Assembly (NCBI RefSeq): GCF_019311235.1
Contig: NZ_JAHWDF010000005.1
Coordinates: 1 to 64,000 of the forward strand
Direction of reading: 5' to 3'
Origin: Mesonia aestuariivivens
GTDB lineage: Bacteria > Bacteroidota > Bacteroidia > Flavobacteriales > Flavobacteriaceae
DNA length: 64,000 nt
The notes beneath the pieces were generated by a model. It made no database searches. It was not told the origin of the DNA and worked only from the letters and a program-made list of their open reading frames with translations. Every line of letters begins with the position of its first letter. Position 1 is the stretch's first letter. The position numbers and the translations under genes are program-made. This document shows, one piece after another, positions 4,703-34,134 of the stretch.

Positions 4703-5743
4703 TTATTTTTCTATAATTTTCACTTCAAAAAGTTTATCCCAGTTTTTTCCAGTTACATAAAGTTTTTTAGTAGTTGGGTTGTATGCTATGCCGTTAAAAA
4801 CATTTAAGTCTTTATGTTGTGTTACCTTTTCTCTTAGACCTCTAAAATCGATAATACCTTCAATAGCTCCAGTTTTAGGGTTTATAATAGCTACACCATC
4901 ACGTTGGTAAGTGTTTGCGTAAATTTTACCTTCTACCCATTCTAATTCATTTAATTTTGTAGAAGTAGATTTATGGGTAACGGGTTGTATGTAGCTTTTT
5001 TCTTCAAGAGTTTCAGGATCTAAAATCCAAATCTTTTCGGTTCCGTCGCTTTTGTAAAATTTGTTTTTGTCATGGCATAATCCCCAGCCTTCTTTACTTT
5101 GATTGAATTGAAAAATGTCTAATCGTTCAAAAGTATCAAGATCATAAATTAATCCGTCGCCAGAACGCCAAGTAAGTTGGTAGATTTTGTTCTTGAAAAT
5201 AGTTAAACCTTCACCAAAGTAATGAGAAGATAAGTCTATTTTTTTTAACACTTCACCTGTTTTGTAATCTACTTTTCTAAGGGATGATTTCCCGTTTAAC
5301 CCTGTGCTTTCGTATAATGTATCATTATGAAATTCTAAGCCTTGAGTGTACGCTTCAATATCATGAGGGTAGGTGTTTATAATTTTGTAAGTGTAAACTT
5401 TAGGAGATTTACTGCTATGAACTATTATTTCTTTATTTAAAGTGGTCATTTCTCCTTCACTGTAAATAGTTGCTGTAAAATTATTTTTGCCTAGAGGTAA
5501 ATCAAAAGTAATTTGGTTATTCTCTACTAGAACCTTTTGGCCGGCATATTTATAGAGTACCGAATCTATTTCTTGACTTCTTTTTTGTTCTAATTTTACG
5601 TTTATAGCGTCACCTCGCTGTATTTTTTTGTCTTTTTCTCCTAATTGTAAAGAAAAATTATTTGCTGAATTTTCTGTTTTTTCTCCACAAGAAAAAAAGA
5701 TAAGACTTAATAATAACAGCGTCAATAAGTTATGAATTCTCAT
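4703..5743 (-). CDS. Glutaminyl-peptide cyclotransferase, lipoprotein
   Basis: Predicted to convert N-terminal glutamine of peptides or proteins to pyroglutamate. The 346 residues start with a lipoprotein signal ending at FFSC (Cys19), which would place it on the periplasmic side of a membrane. The beta-propeller domain begins near 118 with YPHDIEAYTQGLEF, followed by LYESTGLNGKSSLRKVD and FGEGLTIFKNKIYQLTWRS, all characteristic of the bacterial and plant glutamine cyclotransferase family. Residues 25-110 form an extra N-terminal domain common in Bacteroidota homologues. It is the first gene of a two-gene minus-strand unit with the beta-helix lipoprotein (4-base gap). Confidence 0.88.
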   Translation of the reverse strand: MRIHNLLTLLLLSLIFFSCGEKTENSANNFSLQLGEKDKKIQRGDAINVKLEQKRSQEIDSVLYKYAGQKVLVENNQITFDLPLGKNNFTATIYSEGEMTTLNKEIIVHSSKSPKVYTYKIINTYPHDIEAYTQGLEFHNDTLYESTGLNGKSSLRKVDYKTGEVLKKIDLSSHYFGEGLTIFKNKIYQLTWRSGDGLIYDLDTFERLDIFQFNQSKEGWGLCHDKNKFYKSDGTEKIWILDPETLEEKSYIQPVTHKSTSTKLNELEWVEGKIYANTYQRDGVAIINPKTGAIEGIIDFRGLREKVTQHKDLNVFNGIAYNPTTKKLYVTGKNWDKLFEVKIIEK

Positions 5744-5796
5744 TAAATTGTTTTTTTTAACAGTGGCTAATTTAGTTATTTCTTGCTAAAAAATGC

Positions 5797-5826
5797 TTGC
5801 ATAAATAGATAAACCTTGTATATTTG
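5797..5826 (+). promoter_or_regulatory. Promoter of the SRP RNA gene
   Basis: A -33 TTG at 5797-5799 and a perfect -7 TATATTTG at 5819-5826 are separated by 19 bases, matching the Bacteroidota housekeeping sigma consensus TTG-N17-23-TAnnTTTG. The SRP RNA begins about 5 bases downstream. Confidence 0.9.
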
Positions 5827-5830
5827 CACT

Positions 5831-5931
5831 CGGCAAGTCCCACACAACCAGCTCCTGTCGAATTCCCCCAGGGCGGGAACGCAGCAAGGGTAGATGGTCG
5901 TAGCGGTGTGATGTGGGTAGCTTGCCTTTTT
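5831..5931 (+). ncRNA. ffs: Signal recognition particle RNA (4.5S type)
   Basis: A short bacterial SRP RNA of about 100 bases that binds Ffh for co-translational membrane targeting. The conserved helix 8 region is clear: AGGGCGGGAACGCAGCAAGG spans 5870-5889, with the GGAA loop and the asymmetric GCAGCAAGG side. The two ends pair as GGCAAG (5832-5837) with CTTGCC (5921-5926), extended by CCCACA with TGTGGG. A T-run follows the closing stem and acts as terminator. The promoter fits the transcript start exactly. Confidence 0.96.
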
Positions 5932-6028
5932 TTATACACTATTCTCAAATATTTTCACTTTTATTCTTAACGTTATATTTTAAGCTTTCTTATAAATAAG
6001 CGATATTTGTCATCCTATTTTAAAAGGT

Positions 6029-6835
6029 ATGATGAATAAAGTGGTGTTAATTACTGGAGCTTCTTCTGGTATTGGTAAATCTATAGGTGAATTTTTAGCT
6101 AAAAAAGGTTATAAAGTTTATGGCACAAGTAGAAAGCCTAAGGCTTCAGAATTAAATGGTATTCATTTTGTGGCTTTAGATGTTACAAAATTAGAAACTA
6201 TTACTGCAGCAGTGCAAATTATTATTGAAAAAGAAAGTAGAATAGATTTTCTAATAAATAATGCAGGAATGGGAATTACAGGTCCTATTGAAGAGACTCC
6301 GGATGAAGAGATTAAACGAGTATTCGATACCAATTATTTTGGTGTTATTAATGTAATTAAAGCTGTTTTGCCGTTTATGCGAGCGCAAGGTGAGGGTTTT
6401 ATTATAAATATAACCTCTATTGCTGGTTATATGGGATTGCCATACCGAGGAATTTATTCTGCAACAAAAGGAGCACTCGAGCTTACTACTGAGGCATTTA
6501 GGATGGAACTGAAAGAATTTAATATTAAAATGACGAATATAGCTCCTGGTGATTTTGCTACCAATATTGCAGCAGGAAGATATCATGCTCCAGTAAGAGA
6601 AGATTCTCCTTATAAAGAAAACTACGGGAATACCCTTAAACTGATGGATGAACATGTAGACAAGGGGCAAGATCCTATAAAAATGGCAGAAAAAGTGTAT
6701 GCGGTAATGCAGAAAAAAAAACCAACCATACACTATAAGGTAGGAGATACTTTACAGAAATTTAGTATCGCTTTAAAGCATATTTTGCCTGATAAATTAT
6801 ATGAAAAAATGCTTATGAATCATTATAAACTGTAA
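6029..6835 (+). CDS. Short-chain dehydrogenase/reductase
   Basis: An NAD(P)-dependent oxidoreductase of the classical SDR family, 268 residues. The nucleotide-binding TGASSGIG is at 9-16 and NNAG at 77-80. The catalytic set is Ser130, Tyr143 and Lys147 (YSATK). SRKPK after the second strand suggests NADP preference. The substrate is unknown; the C-terminal KKPTIHYKVGD resembles the group that acts on lipid-like or steroid-like alcohols, but this is only a guess. Two ATG codons stand in tandem at 6029 and 6032 and the true start is not decided. The transaldolase gene follows after 33 bases in the same direction. Confidence 0.9.
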   Translation: MMNKVVLITGASSGIGKSIGEFLAKKGYKVYGTSRKPKASELNGIHFVALDVTKLETITAAVQIIIEKESRIDFLINNAGMGITGPIEETPDEEIKRVFDTNYFGVINVIKAVLPFMRAQGEGFIINITSIAGYMGLPYRGIYSATKGALELTTEAFRMELKEFNIKMTNIAPGDFATNIAAGRYHAPVREDSPYKENYGNTLKLMDEHVDKGQDPIKMAEKVYAVMQKKKPTIHYKVGDTLQKFSIALKHILPDKLYEKMLMNHYKL

Positions 6836-29056: not shown

Positions 29057-29734
29057 ATGAACATACCACTTTCAAACCTAACCTTAAAAATACCAGAGAA
29101 TATCTATATTAAAGATCCTCAATCTTCAAAATTGGGAAGAAGAATTTTAGAATATTCAATACAAATTATAAGACAAGAAGGTTTAGAGAAGTTTACATTT
29201 AAAAAATTAGCAGATGAGATAAGTTCTAACGAGAGTTCAGTTTATCGCTATTTTGAAAATAAACATATGCTTATGCTTTATCTAATTTCTTGGTATTGGG
29301 GATGGTTAGAATATAAATTAGTATTTAGAATAAACAACATAGAATATAAAGAAGAAGTTTTAAAGCGTGCCATTACTGTAATTACAGAAACTCCTCAAAA
29401 AGATGAAACCTTCGGGTTTATAAATGAAGAAGAGCTGCACCATATCATTGTACAAGAATATTCTAAAGCTTTTCATACCATAGATATTGATGAGGAAAAT
29501 AAAAATGGATATTTTGCCGTTTACCGAAGATTGGTAGAGCGTTTAGGTGAAATTATTTCAGCATATAACGAAGAGTATGCTTATCCGCTCACTTTAGCAA
29601 ATACAGTACTTCAAGGAGCTTTAAAACAAAATTTCTTAAATCAACATTTTAAACATCTTTCAGACTTTAAATCTTCTGATGAAGAACCGATTACTCAATT
29701 TTTTCAGCATTTAATTTTTAAATCACTTAATTAA
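29057..29734 (+). CDS. TetR/AcrR family transcriptional regulator
   Basis: A 225-residue repressor-like regulator. The DNA-binding domain spans about 26-75: RILEYSIQIIRQEGLEKFTFK, the helix-turn-helix LADEISSNESSVYRYFENKHMLMLYL, and the TetR hallmark YRYF. The remaining 150 residues are a helical ligand-binding domain of no recognised subtype. It is the first gene of a tightly spaced plus-strand run; the ABC-like gene starts 4 bases after its stop. An inverted repeat over the promoter suggests autoregulation. Its ligand may relate to whatever the downstream envelope complex handles. Confidence 0.88.
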   Translation: MNIPLSNLTLKIPENIYIKDPQSSKLGRRILEYSIQIIRQEGLEKFTFKKLADEISSNESSVYRYFENKHMLMLYLISWYWGWLEYKLVFRINNIEYKEEVLKRAITVITETPQKDETFGFINEEELHHIIVQEYSKAFHTIDIDEENKNGYFAVYRRLVERLGEIISAYNEEYAYPLTLANTVLQGALKQNFLNQHFKHLSDFKSSDEEPITQFFQHLIFKSLN

Positions 29735-29738
29735 CTAC

Positions 29739-31340
29739 ATGAGTTCACCAAATCAAATTTCTCCTTGGTCAAAACTCTTCAACCTTCTTAAATTAGAGCG
29801 AAGAGATATTTTACAAGTACTTTATTACGCCATTTTTGCAGGGGCAATAAGTTTAACACTTCCGTTGGGCATTCAGGCAATTATAAATCTTTTGCAAGGA
29901 GCGCAAATTTCTACTTCTTGGATTTTACTAACTGTTTTAGTAACAGTTGCTGTAGGTTTTTTTGGAGTTTTACAATTATTACAGTTAGATATTGTAGAGA
30001 ATATTCAAGAAAAAATATTTGCAAGAGCTTCTTTTGAATTTATTTACAAGTTTCCGAAAATTAGAGTAAGTGAATTAGAAGGTAAGTATCCGCCAGAGCT
30101 TTCTAATCGGTTTTTTGATGTAATAACCTTACAAAAAGGAATGGAGAAACTTCTATTAGATTTTCCTGCAGCGGTCATTCAAATTGTATTTGGTTTAATA
30201 TTACTTTCAGTTTACCACCCTTTCTTTATAGGAATGGGAATTGTGTTGGTGATTCTTCTTTATATTTTTTTCAAAATAAGTTTAGAAAAAGCTGTAAGTA
30301 CAAGCATTCAAGAATCTAAAGCTAAGTATCAAACAGTTTTTTGGATACAGCAAGTGGCTGCAAATTTTAAGACTTTTAAAAATACGCCTAATGAATATGA
30401 ACAAGAACGAAATAATGAATATGTAGAAAAGTATTTAAATTATCGTCAAAAGCACTTTAAGGTAGTTAAAAATCAATTTAAACAATTGGTCGTTTTTAAA
30501 GTAATTCTCACACTAGGTTTATTGCTAATTGGTGGTTTATTGGTACTCAATCAGCAAATGAATATTGGGCAGTTTGTGGCCTCAGAAATTATTATTGTTC
30601 TTATTATTAATTCTATAGATAAAATAGGTTTTAGTTTAGAAACTATTTACGATGTGGTTACTGCAGTTGAAAAAATAGATGAGGTTAGTTCAAAAAAAAT
30701 AGATAGAAAGGCTCCCGTAAACACCACAAGTTTAACAATTTTCCCTATTGAAACTGAAGACTTAGAAATTAACCACAAGCCAATTAATAATATTAGAGTA
30801 GAAAAAGGCGATTTATTAAATATAGTTGGTAACCATCTTCAAATTTATGATCTTTTTCATTTTTTTGGAGGAATGAAAAGAGTTTCAAATGGAAAAATAT
30901 ACCTAGACCGTAAAGAAATTTCGAGCATTAATTTAGATAGCTATAGAAGAAAAATAGGTTTAGTTTTAAATTCTAATTACTTGTTTGAAGGTACGATCTG
31001 GCAAAATTTAACTTTAAACAACCATTCACTTACAGAAGATGAGGTGTATGATTTATTAGAAAATTTTGGAGTTTTAGAAGAAATTAAACACCTGCCAGAA
31101 ACAATAAATACCTACGTATTTTCAGGAACAAAAATGTTAAGTCATGTGCTTACGCAAAAAATTTGCTTAATTAGGGTTTTATTAAAATTACCAGAATTAC
31201 TATTAATTGAAGAAGAATTTATTTTCTCTAATGAAGATATTAACACCTTGATGAAGTTTGCAGAAAGAACTAAAATGACCGTACTTTTAGCCAGCAAAGA
31301 GAAAATGAATAGTGAGTTAAAAGAAGTAGAATTAAACTAA
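29739..31340 (+). CDS. ABC-exporter-like membrane protein with degenerate ATPase domain
   Basis: A 533-residue protein with the fold plan of a type I ABC exporter. Six membrane helices lie at about 27-50, 61-83, 143-160, 163-180, 252-271 and 279-297, followed by a nucleotide-binding-like domain at 340-533. The ATPase motifs are lost. The Walker A place reads VGNHLQIYD (363-371), with no GKS/T. The Q-loop VPQ is VLN (409-411). The signature place is FSGTK (461-465). Walker B ends LLLIEE (487-492), with Glu for Asp. The H-loop His is Ser519. The fold-level pattern (GKIYLDRKEISSINLDSYRRKIGLVL and LFEGTIWQNL) is still clear and the frame is intact, so it is not a recent frameshift. No peptidase C39 domain is present. 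It probably acts with the HlyD and TolC proteins encoded next to it. Confidence 0.85.
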   Translation: MSSPNQISPWSKLFNLLKLERRDILQVLYYAIFAGAISLTLPLGIQAIINLLQGAQISTSWILLTVLVTVAVGFFGVLQLLQLDIVENIQEKIFARASFEFIYKFPKIRVSELEGKYPPELSNRFFDVITLQKGMEKLLLDFPAAVIQIVFGLILLSVYHPFFIGMGIVLVILLYIFFKISLEKAVSTSIQESKAKYQTVFWIQQVAANFKTFKNTPNEYEQERNNEYVEKYLNYRQKHFKVVKNQFKQLVVFKVILTLGLLLIGGLLVLNQQMNIGQFVASEIIIVLIINSIDKIGFSLETIYDVVTAVEKIDEVSSKKIDRKAPVNTTSLTIFPIETEDLEINHKPINNIRVEKGDLLNIVGNHLQIYDLFHFFGGMKRVSNGKIYLDRKEISSINLDSYRRKIGLVLNSNYLFEGTIWQNLTLNNHSLTEDEVYDLLENFGVLEEIKHLPETINTYVFSGTKMLSHVLTQKICLIRVLLKLPELLLIEEEFIFSNEDINTLMKFAERTKMTVLLASKEKMNSELKEVELN

Positions 31341-31350
31341 AGAAATTACA

Positions 31351-32709
31351 ATGTTAAATTTATCAAATAGTGAAACAGATGGCAATGTAAACTTCTCGAA
31401 GTTTAAAGCTTATTCTTCTATTGTAAATAAAAGTGTGCACCGTTTACTTTCTAAAATCTTATTAGTTTTTAGTATTTTCTTGATTATATTATTGTTTTTC
31501 CCATGGACGCAGACCATAGAAAGTAAAGGGTATGTAACTACTTTAAGACCGGGACAACGACCACAAACCCTTCAATCTCCAATCCCAGGAAAAATTGAAG
31601 AATGGTATGTGAGCGAAGGAGATTATGTAGAAAAAGGAGATACTATTTTACGAATTTCAGAAGTGAAAGATCAATATTTTGATCCCAAGTTATTAGAAAG
31701 AACTGGAGATCAGATTAATTCTAAAGCTAACTCGGTAAAAGCTTATGAGCAAAAAACAGAAGCCTTAAGAGATCAATTAGCTTCTGCTAGACAAGAAAGA
31801 GTTTTGAAATTAGAACAGACAAAAAATAAATTGAAGCAGGCTAAACTTAAAATTGTAAGTGATAGTATTTCTCTCAAAGCTTCTGAGGTTAATCTGAGTA
31901 TTGCTATTAAACAATATGACCGTATAAAAGAGTTATATGAAGAAGGCTTAAAATCTAGATTAGATTATGAGACCAAGCAATCTAAGCTTCAAGAAACTCA
32001 AGCCAAAGTAATAGATCTAGAAAGCAAATTATTAACCAGTAAAAATGAACTGCTTAATGCACGTATGGAGGTAAATCGTATTGAAGCAGAATACGCTAAT
32101 AAAATAAGTAAAATTGAAAGTGATATTTCAACCACAATTTCTACTCGATTAGACACACAAGTACAGGTAAGTAAGCTTGAAAATTCGTTAAGCAATTACG
32201 AAATTAGACGCGGACTTTACTTTATACAAGCTCCATTAGACGGTTATATAAATAAAGCAATCATCTCTGGGATAGGAGAAACCTTTAAAGAAGGAGAGAA
32301 GTTAGTAAATATTATGCCAAAATCTTTTGAGATTGCTGTAGAAACTTATGTAGATCCTATAGATCTGCCATTATTAGGAGTAGGAGATCACATACGCGTA
32401 CAGTTTGATGGTTGGCCTGCAATTGTATTTAGTGGTTGGCCAAATGCCTCTTATGGTACGTATGGTGGTAAAGTTGTAGCTATAGAAAATTTTATTAGCG
32501 ATAATGGGAAATATAGAATTCTCTTAGCTCCAGATCCTGAAAACGAACATGATTGGCCAGATGCATTAAGAGTAGGTTCTGGAGCGAGAACCATGGCGCT
32601 TTTAGAAGACGTTCCTATTTGGTATGAACTCTGGAGAAAATTAAATGGTTTTCCTCCTAATTATTACCCTAAGTCACAACAAAAAGAAACTGACAAAAAA
32701 TCGAAATAG
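31351..32709 (+). CDS. HlyD-family periplasmic adaptor protein
   Basis: A 452-residue membrane fusion protein. One inner-membrane helix is at about 32-52. A lipoyl half-domain follows (SPIPGKIEEWYVSEGDYVEKGDTIL, near 76-100), then a long coiled-coil hairpin (about 125-270) that would reach the TolC tip. The second lipoyl half (YFIQAPLDGYINKAI) and a beta-barrel region with DPIDLPLLGVGDHIRVQFDGWP come next. It would bridge the inner-membrane ABC-like protein and the outer-membrane channel. It starts 10 bases after the ABC-like gene and ends 3 bases before the TolC-like gene. Confidence 0.92.
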   Translation: MLNLSNSETDGNVNFSKFKAYSSIVNKSVHRLLSKILLVFSIFLIILLFFPWTQTIESKGYVTTLRPGQRPQTLQSPIPGKIEEWYVSEGDYVEKGDTILRISEVKDQYFDPKLLERTGDQINSKANSVKAYEQKTEALRDQLASARQERVLKLEQTKNKLKQAKLKIVSDSISLKASEVNLSIAIKQYDRIKELYEEGLKSRLDYETKQSKLQETQAKVIDLESKLLTSKNELLNARMEVNRIEAEYANKISKIESDISTTISTRLDTQVQVSKLENSLSNYEIRRGLYFIQAPLDGYINKAIISGIGETFKEGEKLVNIMPKSFEIAVETYVDPIDLPLLGVGDHIRVQFDGWPAIVFSGWPNASYGTYGGKVVAIENFISDNGKYRILLAPDPENEHDWPDALRVGSGARTMALLEDVPIWYELWRKLNGFPPNYYPKSQQKETDKKSK

Positions 32710-32712
32710 AAT

Positions 32713-34134
32713 ATGATGAAATATTTTAATTTATTTTTATACATACTCTTACCGTTTTTTTGTTTTGCCCAAGAAGCTAATACCTTAGAAAAAGCAGAGC
32801 ATATTTTTTCTTTAGAAGAATTTTTGGCGATGGTGAAAAAACATCATCCGGTGGTCGCTCAGGCTAATCTTAAAATCTCTGAAGCCGAAGCAAAATTATT
32901 AAAAGCAAGAGGTTCTTTCGATCCTAAATTAGAAGGAGGGGTGAAAGAAAAAAATTATAATGGTACCGAGTATTATTCATTGTGGAATGGAAGTTTTACA
33001 ATACCTACTTGGTATGGGATAGATGTAAAAGCAGATTACGAACAAAATGAAGGTTATTATTTAAACGGCCAAAATACAACACCAGAAGATGGTATTTTTA
33101 GTGCAGGAGTAAGTGTTAGTGTTCTAAAAGGTCTACTTTATAACGACAGAATGAACTCGGTAAGACAAGCAAAAATACTTCAAAATCAAAATGAAGTAGA
33201 GCGCGATATTTTAGTGAATTCAATTTTAACTGAAGCAACCAAAGCTTATGCAGATTGGAAGCTTTATTATGAAAATAAAACTGTCTTTGAAGATTTTTTA
33301 AATAACGCTCAAATACGCTTTAATGGAATTTCTAGGTCTAGTGAACTAGGCGAGACGAGAGCTATAGATACGGTAGAAACAAAAATATTTTTACGTTCGC
33401 GAGAATTAGATTTAAAACAGGCTAATCTTCAACTTCAGAAAGCAAAACTAAATTTATCTAATTATTTATGGGTAGACAAACTACCAGTAGAACTAGAAAA
33501 TAATCTCATTCCGCAGATTTCAGAAGAAAATATGTTGGCTAATTTAGGGATAGATAGTTATTTTGGAAATGCAGAAAACCTATCCAATCATCCAGAATTA
33601 CGTTCTCTAGAATACGATTTGCAATCATACGATTTAGATATCAAGTTAGGTAAAAATAACCTTATGCCAACTTTAGATGTGGAGTATAGGTTTCTAACAG
33701 AAAATGTAGATCGGGCTAACTCTTTAAATACCAATAATTATAAAGCAGGCGTAAAATTGAAGTTTCCTTTGTTTTTACGTAAAGAGCGAGGAGATTTACG
33801 CATAGCAAAAATAAAAAGAGAAAATACAGAATATAAATTTGATCAAAAAAAGTGGACACTTAAAAATAAAATTAAAGCTACAGAGCAAGAAATTATAAGT
33901 TTAAAAGAGCAATTAGAAATCATTGAAAATATTGTGGCAGATAGCCAAACGATGGTGGTTTCTGAACGCCGTTTGTTTGATTTGGGAGAAAGCTCCATAT
34001 TTTTAATTAATTCAAGAGAAAATAAACTTATAGATGTGCAGTTGAAGCAAAACAAGATTCAGAATACCTATTTTAAAGCAGCAGCAAAACTCTTTGAAAA
34101 TCTTCGCCTGAATTTATTAGATGAAGCGGAATAA
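32713..34134 (+). CDS. TolC-family outer-membrane protein
   Basis: A 473-residue outer-membrane efflux protein. The signal peptide is about 20 residues, ending near CFAQEA. Two repeats of the TolC helical and beta-strand pattern follow: LEEFLAMVKKHHPVVAQANLKISEAEAKLLKARGSFDPKL at the start of repeat one, and NHPELRSLEYDLQSYDLDIKLGKNNLMPTLDVEY at the start of repeat two. Two ATG codons stand in tandem (32713 and 32716). It is the last gene of the TetR/ABC-like/HlyD/TolC run; the gap to the next gene is 42 bases, with a T-run but no hairpin. Confidence 0.91.
   Translation: MMKYFNLFLYILLPFFCFAQEANTLEKAEHIFSLEEFLAMVKKHHPVVAQANLKISEAEAKLLKARGSFDPKLEGGVKEKNYNGTEYYSLWNGSFTIPTWYGIDVKADYEQNEGYYLNGQNTTPEDGIFSAGVSVSVLKGLLYNDRMNSVRQAKILQNQNEVERDILVNSILTEATKAYADWKLYYENKTVFEDFLNNAQIRFNGISRSSELGETRAIDTVETKIFLRSRELDLKQANLQLQKAKLNLSNYLWVDKLPVELENNLIPQISEENMLANLGIDSYFGNAENLSNHPELRSLEYDLQSYDLDIKLGKNNLMPTLDVEYRFLTENVDRANSLNTNNYKAGVKLKFPLFLRKERGDLRIAKIKRENTEYKFDQKKWTLKNKIKATEQEIISLKEQLEIIENIVADSQTMVVSERRLFDLGESSIFLINSRENKLIDVQLKQNKIQNTYFKAAAKLFENLRLNLLDEAE

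Follow-up and report, generated by a model that had tools for sequence, protein, structure and literature searches.

Can an export complex built around an ATP-binding cassette (ABC) exporter be kept after its ATPase has been lost, and what would then drive it? The question is raised by a locus in Mesonia aestuariivivens (contig NZ_JAHWDF010000005.1, positions 1 to 64,000 of the forward strand; this whole stretch of 64,000 nucleotides is called the window). Four + strand open reading frames (ORFs) lie head to tail at 29057-34134 with intergenic gaps of 4, 10 and 3 bp, and Pfam matches backed their assignment as a TetR regulator, an ABC-like protein, a HlyD adaptor and a TolC/OEP channel. A first-pass annotation, made from the DNA letters, had claimed that the ABC-like protein keeps six membrane helices and an ATPase-like fold while other residues stand at its Walker A, Q-loop, signature, Walker B Asp and H-loop His sites. 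The locus is read here as a tripartite exporter that goes back to an ABC exporter (type I secretion-like), has abandoned ATP hydrolysis and is most likely proton-driven, an explanation towards which we lean slightly. ATP-independence of the export system is well supported by the sequences of the family.

Pfam placed ABC_membrane over residues 30-291 of the 533-residue protein and ABC_tran only from residue 374, beyond the P-loop. The AlphaFold2 model, built from 32 sequences (mean predicted local distance difference test score, pLDDT, 77.9), has six long helices after a short N-terminal one, and a C-terminal domain resembling a nucleotide-binding domain (NBD); DSSP assigned the helices to residues 9-18, 21-55, 60-107, 118-159, 162-208, 219-270 and 276-317. 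Six long transmembrane (TM) helices with cytoplasmic extensions, an elbow helix and an NBD-like domain are the features of a type IV ABC exporter. Such exporters matched the model over its whole length in Foldseek (HlyB 8dck_A, TM-score 0.85; PCAT1 core, 0.84; TM287/288, up to 0.84). The motif sites (Table 1) were read beside 17 ordinary ABC exporters in the same alignment, 14 fetched from weak genome-scan matches and three being paralogues from the window genome. In the same columns these controls carry GK[S/T] in 17, the Q-loop Gln in 17, the Walker B Asp in 17, the catalytic Glu in 15 and the H-loop His in 16; the signature column reads LSGGQ in 13 and ISQGQ, ISGGQ or LSSGQ in four. With nearly all motifs retained in the same columns of the controls, an alignment artefact behind the motif loss was ruled out. 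The model, the Foldseek matches and the controls together bear out the first-pass description of the protein.

A genome scan returned 399 related stretches, and the 80 with the best matches were taken as loci (the 80 nearest loci). All five losses are common to 11 relatives at 52-91% identity (Mesonia, Zunongwangia and one record labelled Salegentibacter); in the other 69 loci, 42-47% identical, most other motifs are lost and Walker A is usually intact. All four genes stand in order in 65 of the 80, with HlyD next to the ABC-like gene in all except one, so the four-gene order proposed for the locus is a kept one; some of the missing neighbours are contig ends. Frames were intact in the 80 loci as extracted. 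In three Zunongwangia loci (L007-L009) the ABC-HlyD-TolC order is the same and no TetR gene was recognised upstream. In Salegentibacter sp. oa5 (L038) a TolC-like gene lies about 2.7 kb past HlyD, not adjoining it, and the P-loop has Arg for Lys.

That the locus holds a decayed gene or an artefact is scarcely credible. Its NBD does evolve about twice as fast as its transmembrane domain (TMD), and a Sphingopyxis copy is interrupted beside an IS3 transposase gene, but the frames of the nearest loci are intact, related species share the same losses, the operon is conserved and HlyD is kept in 68 of 68 loci that lack the NBD altogether (described below). Across the seven closest species, nonsynonymous substitutions per site (dN) were 0.05-0.33 for the NBD and 0.03-0.13 for the TMD. 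Synonymous substitutions (dS) were saturated (at least 0.88, mostly above 1, several undefined), so that low dN was used and omega values were not. The TMD is strongly conserved across the family, and the NBD, though faster, does not evolve freely. Shared losses, conserved operon and low dN rule out decay or sequencing error, and with 11 relatives sharing all five losses the copy is no singleton decayed gene, a possibility that the first-pass annotation had raised against itself.

How far the loss extends was read in a wider sample of 392 genomes drawn from the phylum, 180 of which had a match at 1e-40. The weakest-scoring group of the 180 resembles ordinary ABC exporters, and the 14 fetched from it as controls retain nearly all motifs. 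By score the degenerate family occurs in 73 of the 392 genomes, 67 of them NBD-bearing (E 1e-157 or better, the window's genome included) and six NBD-less. The reading of motifs, present or absent, covered 54 of the 73. The window's own copy and paralogues (L081-L084) were left out of the family set, and duplicates (L155-157, L185, L186, L215) out of the family alignment, in which the twins L115-L120 were kept. This gave 137 NBD-bearing degenerate relatives, with the window's 12-row clade counted apart and L170, on a truncated contig, left out. Among the 137, LSGGQ is found in none, the H-loop His in two, the Q-loop Gln in 17, the Walker B Asp in 13, the catalytic Glu in 25 and the Asp-Glu pair in two. 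Strict GK[S/T] is present in 131; five of the six exceptions are one-letter departures and the sixth (L133) has no P-loop at all. In the window's clade Walker A is present in 0 of 12 rows.

The expectation that the lost motifs would be conserved as lost therefore holds for LSGGQ, the H-loop and the Walker B pair and fails for Walker A, which most relatives keep. Homologues in the same gene order with both GK[S/T] and the Asp-Glu pair intact, named in the first-pass annotation as its counter-case, were not seen as a rule. Near-absence of the pair, absence of LSGGQ and retention of HlyD after deletion of the NBD all support its claim of a tripartite complex without ATP hydrolysis of its own. From the rows read, loss of Walker A is particular to the window's clade plus a few others, namely L133 (one Bacteroidota genome), L248 (Aureibacter) and ten of ten sphingomonad plasmid rows. 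In an outgroup of 17 rows, Walker A is present in 17, the Walker B Asp in 17, the catalytic Glu in 16 and the H-loop His in 12, with LSGGQ and the Q-loop Gln in none. This outgroup is thus already unusual, and loss of the ATPase motifs seems to have been gradual, one step after another.

Retention of GK[S/T] in 131 of 137 rows while the hydrolysis motifs are gone would suit a nucleotide-gated, non-hydrolytic switch, in which ATP serves the Walker A-retaining members as a structural or regulatory ligand and has been dispensed with in the window's and the NBD-less clades. Nucleotide binding without hydrolysis may indeed persist in those members. As an account of the core function the switch is improbable: Walker A has been lost in several separate lineages and the whole NBD in 68 loci, so neither can be essential to it, and the usual P-loop mode is impossible for the window protein.

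Several members of the set depart from the common form. An extra N-terminal region of about 100-270 residues, judged by total length, precedes the membrane domain in L130, L131, L132, L245 and L257 and also in the outgroup rows L138, L139, L141-L149 and L154; the four scanned (L130, L132, L138, L144) gave no Pfam match in it at E 0.01. One family member (G602:C1:3908950-3911724) is split into two open frames of 298 and 430 residues and is possibly a decayed copy. Among the ten sphingomonad records, seven have ABC-like, HlyD (or biotin/lipoyl-binding) and TolC genes annotated in a row and two carry no annotation. In the Sphingopyxis sp. 113P3 plasmid (L249) the ABC-like gene is interrupted, with an annotated IS3-family transposase gene at 5292-6655 beside the break. 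On two Sphingomonas plasmids (L253, L255) the divergent upstream gene is annotated as a LysR-family regulator or hydrogen peroxide-inducible genes activator, not TetR.

In one clade the ATPase domain is gone. Six sampled loci encode the membrane domain alone (332-339 residues), then HlyD and TolC, the latter read with wide flanks. Searches with these six in three families found NBD-less genes in 15 of 121, 32 of 101 and 23 of 100 genomes, short open frames being counted; one of the families is probably Sphingobacteriaceae, since L171 adjoins a Pedobacter in the tree. All 68 of the NBD-less loci read encode a membrane domain of 329-385 residues with HlyD directly downstream, and no NBD was found in the roughly 4 kb fetched for each of the 68. 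The HlyD start lies between -52 and +119 bp from the membrane-domain stop in every one, which rules out a split gene with the NBD in the following frame. Two NBD-less operons (L119, L120) stand beside apparent resistance-nodulation-division (RND) efflux genes (ORFs of 1443 and 1050 residues, by eye). One genome (G563) has three family copies, two of them short frames that could not hold an NBD and a third of 577 residues.

An NBD detached from the gene was sought by searching 21 NBD-less genomes and two controls with the NBD of a near NBD-bearing relative (L132). Among the matches listed, no detached family NBD was found in any of the 21 genomes, although a strongly diverged copy could escape such a search: the matches were generic ABC proteins (best E 1e-23 to 1e-29), all listed ones in ORFs of at least 576 residues. 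The controls returned a match at E 4.9e-62 (G186) and the self match (G190). The window's operon itself contains no second ATPase gene, as the first-pass annotation had noted. Two candidates near NBD-less loci were rejected. An ABC ATPase gene about 4.3 kb past the membrane-domain gene of L115, 1.3 kb past TolC, was judged unrelated because an apparent membrane gene and a GntR-like gene, read by eye, follow it; a weak match in L116 (E 3.6e-5) appears by eye to be another ATPase.

These results bear on the idea of an ATPase in trans, an unlinked enzyme that would power the complex by binding to its coupling helices. In its favour, some ABC importers share ATPases, and NBD-less members have kept the first coupling-helix region well conserved. 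The generic level of the listed matches in 21 of 21 genomes speaks against it, as does linkage, with no ATPase in 68 short stretches and, among the six wide ones, only that of L115. So does relaxation of the second coupling-helix tip (residues 206-226), which was assumed to be the main NBD contact. Compared at matched TMD identity (bin 0.55-0.65; pairs not independent), the tip's conservation was 0.50 in the outgroup, 0.41 in degenerate rows and 0.34 in NBD-less rows, which fits loss of an NBD contact. We regard an ATPase in trans as quite improbable. A heterodimer of the TM287/288 or TmrAB kind, in which the window protein would be the degenerate half and another locus would encode the active one, has even less in its favour and is very improbable. 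Degenerate NBDs are known in heterodimeric exporters (passages of PMC8277102) and TM287/288 is among the Foldseek matches, but the nearest paralogues in the genome are 21-23% identical, lie in ORFs of 590-611 residues and are largely canonical. No second transporter half was found in the window's operon, and a membrane domain free of an NBD is not a usual half-transporter.

Trees were built from the membrane domain only, a quick one of 150 rows and a careful one of 93 rows of the 249 available (235 + 14), with L153 excluded for its broken 5' part; both were midpoint-rooted and several rows stand on long branches. The degenerate Bacteroidota family falls on one side of a branch with support 100/99. 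Inside it the NBD-less genes form one nested clade (100/99; 15 of the 68 rows in the tree), and the window's clade without Walker A has one origin (100/100; six of 12 rows in the careful tree, all 12 in the quick tree). For the sphingomonads the branch length is 2.95, which would fit one or two origins; their ATPase loss may be an independent, second one.

If ATP does not drive the complex, the TMD is where another source would act. Glu283 in TM6, Lys133 in TM3 and His239 in TM5 are invariant in 234 of 234 family rows. In the plasmid rows Glu283 and Lys133 are present in 14 of 14 and His239 in eight of 14, with Tyr in the other six. The 17 controls have none of these residues, at a distance where alignment of the membrane domain is less sure than that of the NBD; ComA has Asn at the place of Glu283. 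We propose that an ABC-fold dimer, the adaptor and the channel would form an export path without ATP hydrolysis. The ATPase domain would no longer power transport. Walker A may still let it bind nucleotide in most relatives; the usual mode of binding is closed to the domain of the window's clade, which may act as a scaffold or regulator, and one branch has lost the domain by deletion. The proton gradient would be the likeliest energy source, acting through charges in the TMD for which Glu283, Lys133, Asp141 (TM3) and His239 are the candidates. It is put first because of two precedents, the membrane domain of MsbA without its NBD, which extrudes ethidium driven by delta-pH (according to passages of PMC4979069), and SbmA (PMC13316013, in part). 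The substrate would be small and sensed by TetR: the TetR regulator and the lack of a recurring neighbour gene of at least 100 residues suggest a small molecule rather than a protein, small peptide genes being outside the clustering. Proton coupling, direction of export, substrate, homodimer formation and assembly with HlyD and TolC are the parts of this proposal that we infer.

The main rival is a passive gate or facilitator, in which the ABC-fold dimer with HlyD and TolC is a regulated conduit and the substrate moves down its gradient with no energy coupling. Motif loss and NBD deletion would then need no substitute energy source, and regulation by TetR would keep leakage in check. Against it, even NBD-less members carry an invariant charge network in the TMD, which would be more than a simple pore needs, and tripartite pumps are described with energized inner-membrane transporters in passages of PMC8277102. 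We consider a passive gate unlikely, though it is the rival to be taken most seriously. The first-pass annotation had argued that the complex would need another energy source or act as a gate; the results support that pair of choices, and the sequence does not choose between proton-driven transport and passive gating.

Several observations weigh against a proton-driven exporter that has done with its ATPase. Glu283, Lys133 and His239 are equally invariant in the 17-row outgroup, which has Walker A and B; they thus predate the ATPase loss and need not be a proton path. The 131 of 137 relatives with Walker A count here too. Full-length MsbA lacking the Walker A Lys transported poorly in cells while the NBD-less form worked (PMC4979069, in part), which means that transport does not necessarily tolerate a dead NBD. 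The NBD of the window protein, which still models as a fold and does not drift freely, probably keeps some role. The loops that form the coupling helices are retained here and lost in SbmA. In the first coupling-helix region (residues 105-122; bin 0.55-0.65) conservation was 0.61 in NBD-less rows, 0.50 in degenerate rows and 0.56 in the outgroup; this absence of relaxation does not fit loss of an NBD contact, and something may still bind there in the NBD-less clade. The window's clade shows no added relaxation of the second tip relative to other degenerate rows (0.548 versus 0.55, bin 0.65-0.8). The data would also be compatible with an ATPase in trans that is non-homologous or has diverged strongly, at the low probability given to it above.

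The features of the locus are collected in Table 1. Upstream of the TetR gene a UvrD-like helicase ORF, read by eye, ends 387 bp before it, and a TsaC/Sua5-type enzyme gene lies downstream of the TolC gene. In the three Zunongwangia loci both of these neighbours are unmatched in the 17.5-kb stretch. Type I systems secrete a polypeptide cargo whose gene frequently adjoins those of the exporter. Clustering of neighbouring ORFs of at least 100 residues found no recurrent family beside the operon, the next best occurring in 12 of 120 loci; shorter ORFs were not clustered and unlinked cargo lay outside the test.

Table 1. Genes, domains and sites of the locus, in window coordinates.
Feature	Coordinates	Strand	Basis
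TetR-family regulator, 225 residues, first gene of the operon	29057..29734	+	PF00440, E 2.8e-6; same strand directly upstream in 68/80 nearest loci
ABC-exporter-like inner-membrane protein, 533 residues, motif-less NBD	29739..31340	+	ORF; PF00664, partial PF00005; AlphaFold2 model; Foldseek; motif reading
TMD, residues 1-317, six long helices after a short elbow-like N-terminal helix	29739..30689	+	DSSP of AlphaFold2 model
Glu283 in TM6, family-invariant	30585..30587	+	234/234 rows and 14/14 plasmid rows; 0/17 ordinary-exporter controls
Degenerate NBD-like domain, residues 346-533	30774..31337	+	AlphaFold2 model; dN roughly double the TMD value, with dS saturated
Former Walker A site, G364 onward (GNHLQIYD), without GK[S/T]	30828..30851	+	Motif reading
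Former Q-loop Gln site, N411	30969..30971	+	Motif reading
Former LSGGQ site, residues 467-471, LSHVL	31137..31151	+	Motif reading
Former Walker B Asp, E491; catalytic Glu position, E492, Glu kept	31209..31214	+	Motif reading
Former H-loop His site, K520	31296..31298	+	Motif reading
HlyD-type periplasmic adaptor, 452 residues	31351..32709	+	PF13437, PF13533; TIGR01843, E 6.2e-26, under its cut-off; next gene in 79/80 nearest loci
TolC-family outer-membrane channel, 473 residues	32713..34134	+	PF02321, E 8.4e-40; third in order in 76/80 nearest loci

ATP hydrolysis is the defining trait of ABC exporters, and tripartite pumps are grouped according to whether an ABC, RND or major facilitator superfamily (MFS) protein energizes them. 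Here an ABC exporter, adaptor and channel have been kept across many genera after loss of the ATPase, in one clade by deletion. There is about an even chance that the family forms a distinct energy class of tripartite envelope exporter: a secondary (proton-driven) transporter of ABC fold, served by a HlyD and a TolC of its own, that would have evolved stepwise from an ATP-driven ancestor and whose intermediates (only the signature altered, only Walker A left, all motifs gone, domain gone) would all be alive in related bacteria. Such a natural series would bear on how a primary pump becomes a secondary one, a problem also addressed with SbmA and engineered MsbA. Nine annotated plasmid entries carry the name 'ABC transporter ATP-binding protein' or 'ABC transporter transmembrane domain-containing protein'; under automated annotation the system thus goes unnoticed, and a genome may be assigned an ATPase that it lacks. 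No description of the family was found among the matches listed from full-text literature, a search that did not cover subscription papers and preprints, and within those limits it appears undescribed.

The fold and partners are those of known type I secretion, and the principle of an ABC fold without an NBD is already known from SbmA. The locus resembles type I systems of HlyB or PCAT with HlyD and TolC in fold (TMq 0.85 for 8dck HlyB), partners and gene order, the ABC-like, HlyD and TolC genes lying in one operon as in those systems. It differs from them in the lost ATPase motifs (the family lacks an ATPase with Walker A and B, LSGGQ and H-loop), in the absence of a recurring neighbour of at least 100 residues and in the deletion of the NBD in one clade. 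The best NCBIfam matches of the window protein are NHLP/NHLM bacteriocin ABC subunits, TIGR03796 (E 1.3e-28) and TIGR03797 (E 1.2e-26), but it scores far under their cut-offs (99.6 bits against 853.3, and 93.5 against 709.4) and both are named as ATPase subunits, unlike this protein. Heterodimeric exporters such as TM287/288 and TmrAB share a degenerate NBD in a type IV exporter; theirs keep one active site, whereas here no active partner is nearby and one clade is without the domain.

According to passages of PMC13316013, SbmA has an ABC fold but no NBD, is driven by protons and is believed to descend from full ABC proteins. As described there, SbmA/BacA-like proteins (SLiPT) resemble the present family in having an ABC-exporter membrane domain without a working NBD, a proposed descent from full ABC proteins and conserved acidic residues. 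The same passages set them apart: SbmA imports peptides, and SLiPTs have TM0 helices and have lost the coupling helices. HlyD and TolC partners, present here, go unmentioned for SbmA/SLiPT in the available parts of that paper. The SLiPT pattern of NBD and coupling-helix loss with gain of TM0a/b is not that of this family, in which the NBD is lost in one clade only; the six aligned NBD-less proteins keep the loop lengths and have no room for extra N-terminal helices. In SLiPTs proton-driven transport passes through a glutamate ladder; the conserved acidic residues of the present family are at most candidates for such a part. Membership of SbmA/BacA by sequence was ruled out, as the six match PF00664 and gave no SbmA_BacA match at E 0.01 or E 1. 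Engineered MsbA without its NBD is likewise a type IV TMD and transports with delta-pH (PMC4979069, in part); there the NBD-less form is a laboratory truncation, whereas in this family it occurs naturally and is conserved within a tripartite operon.

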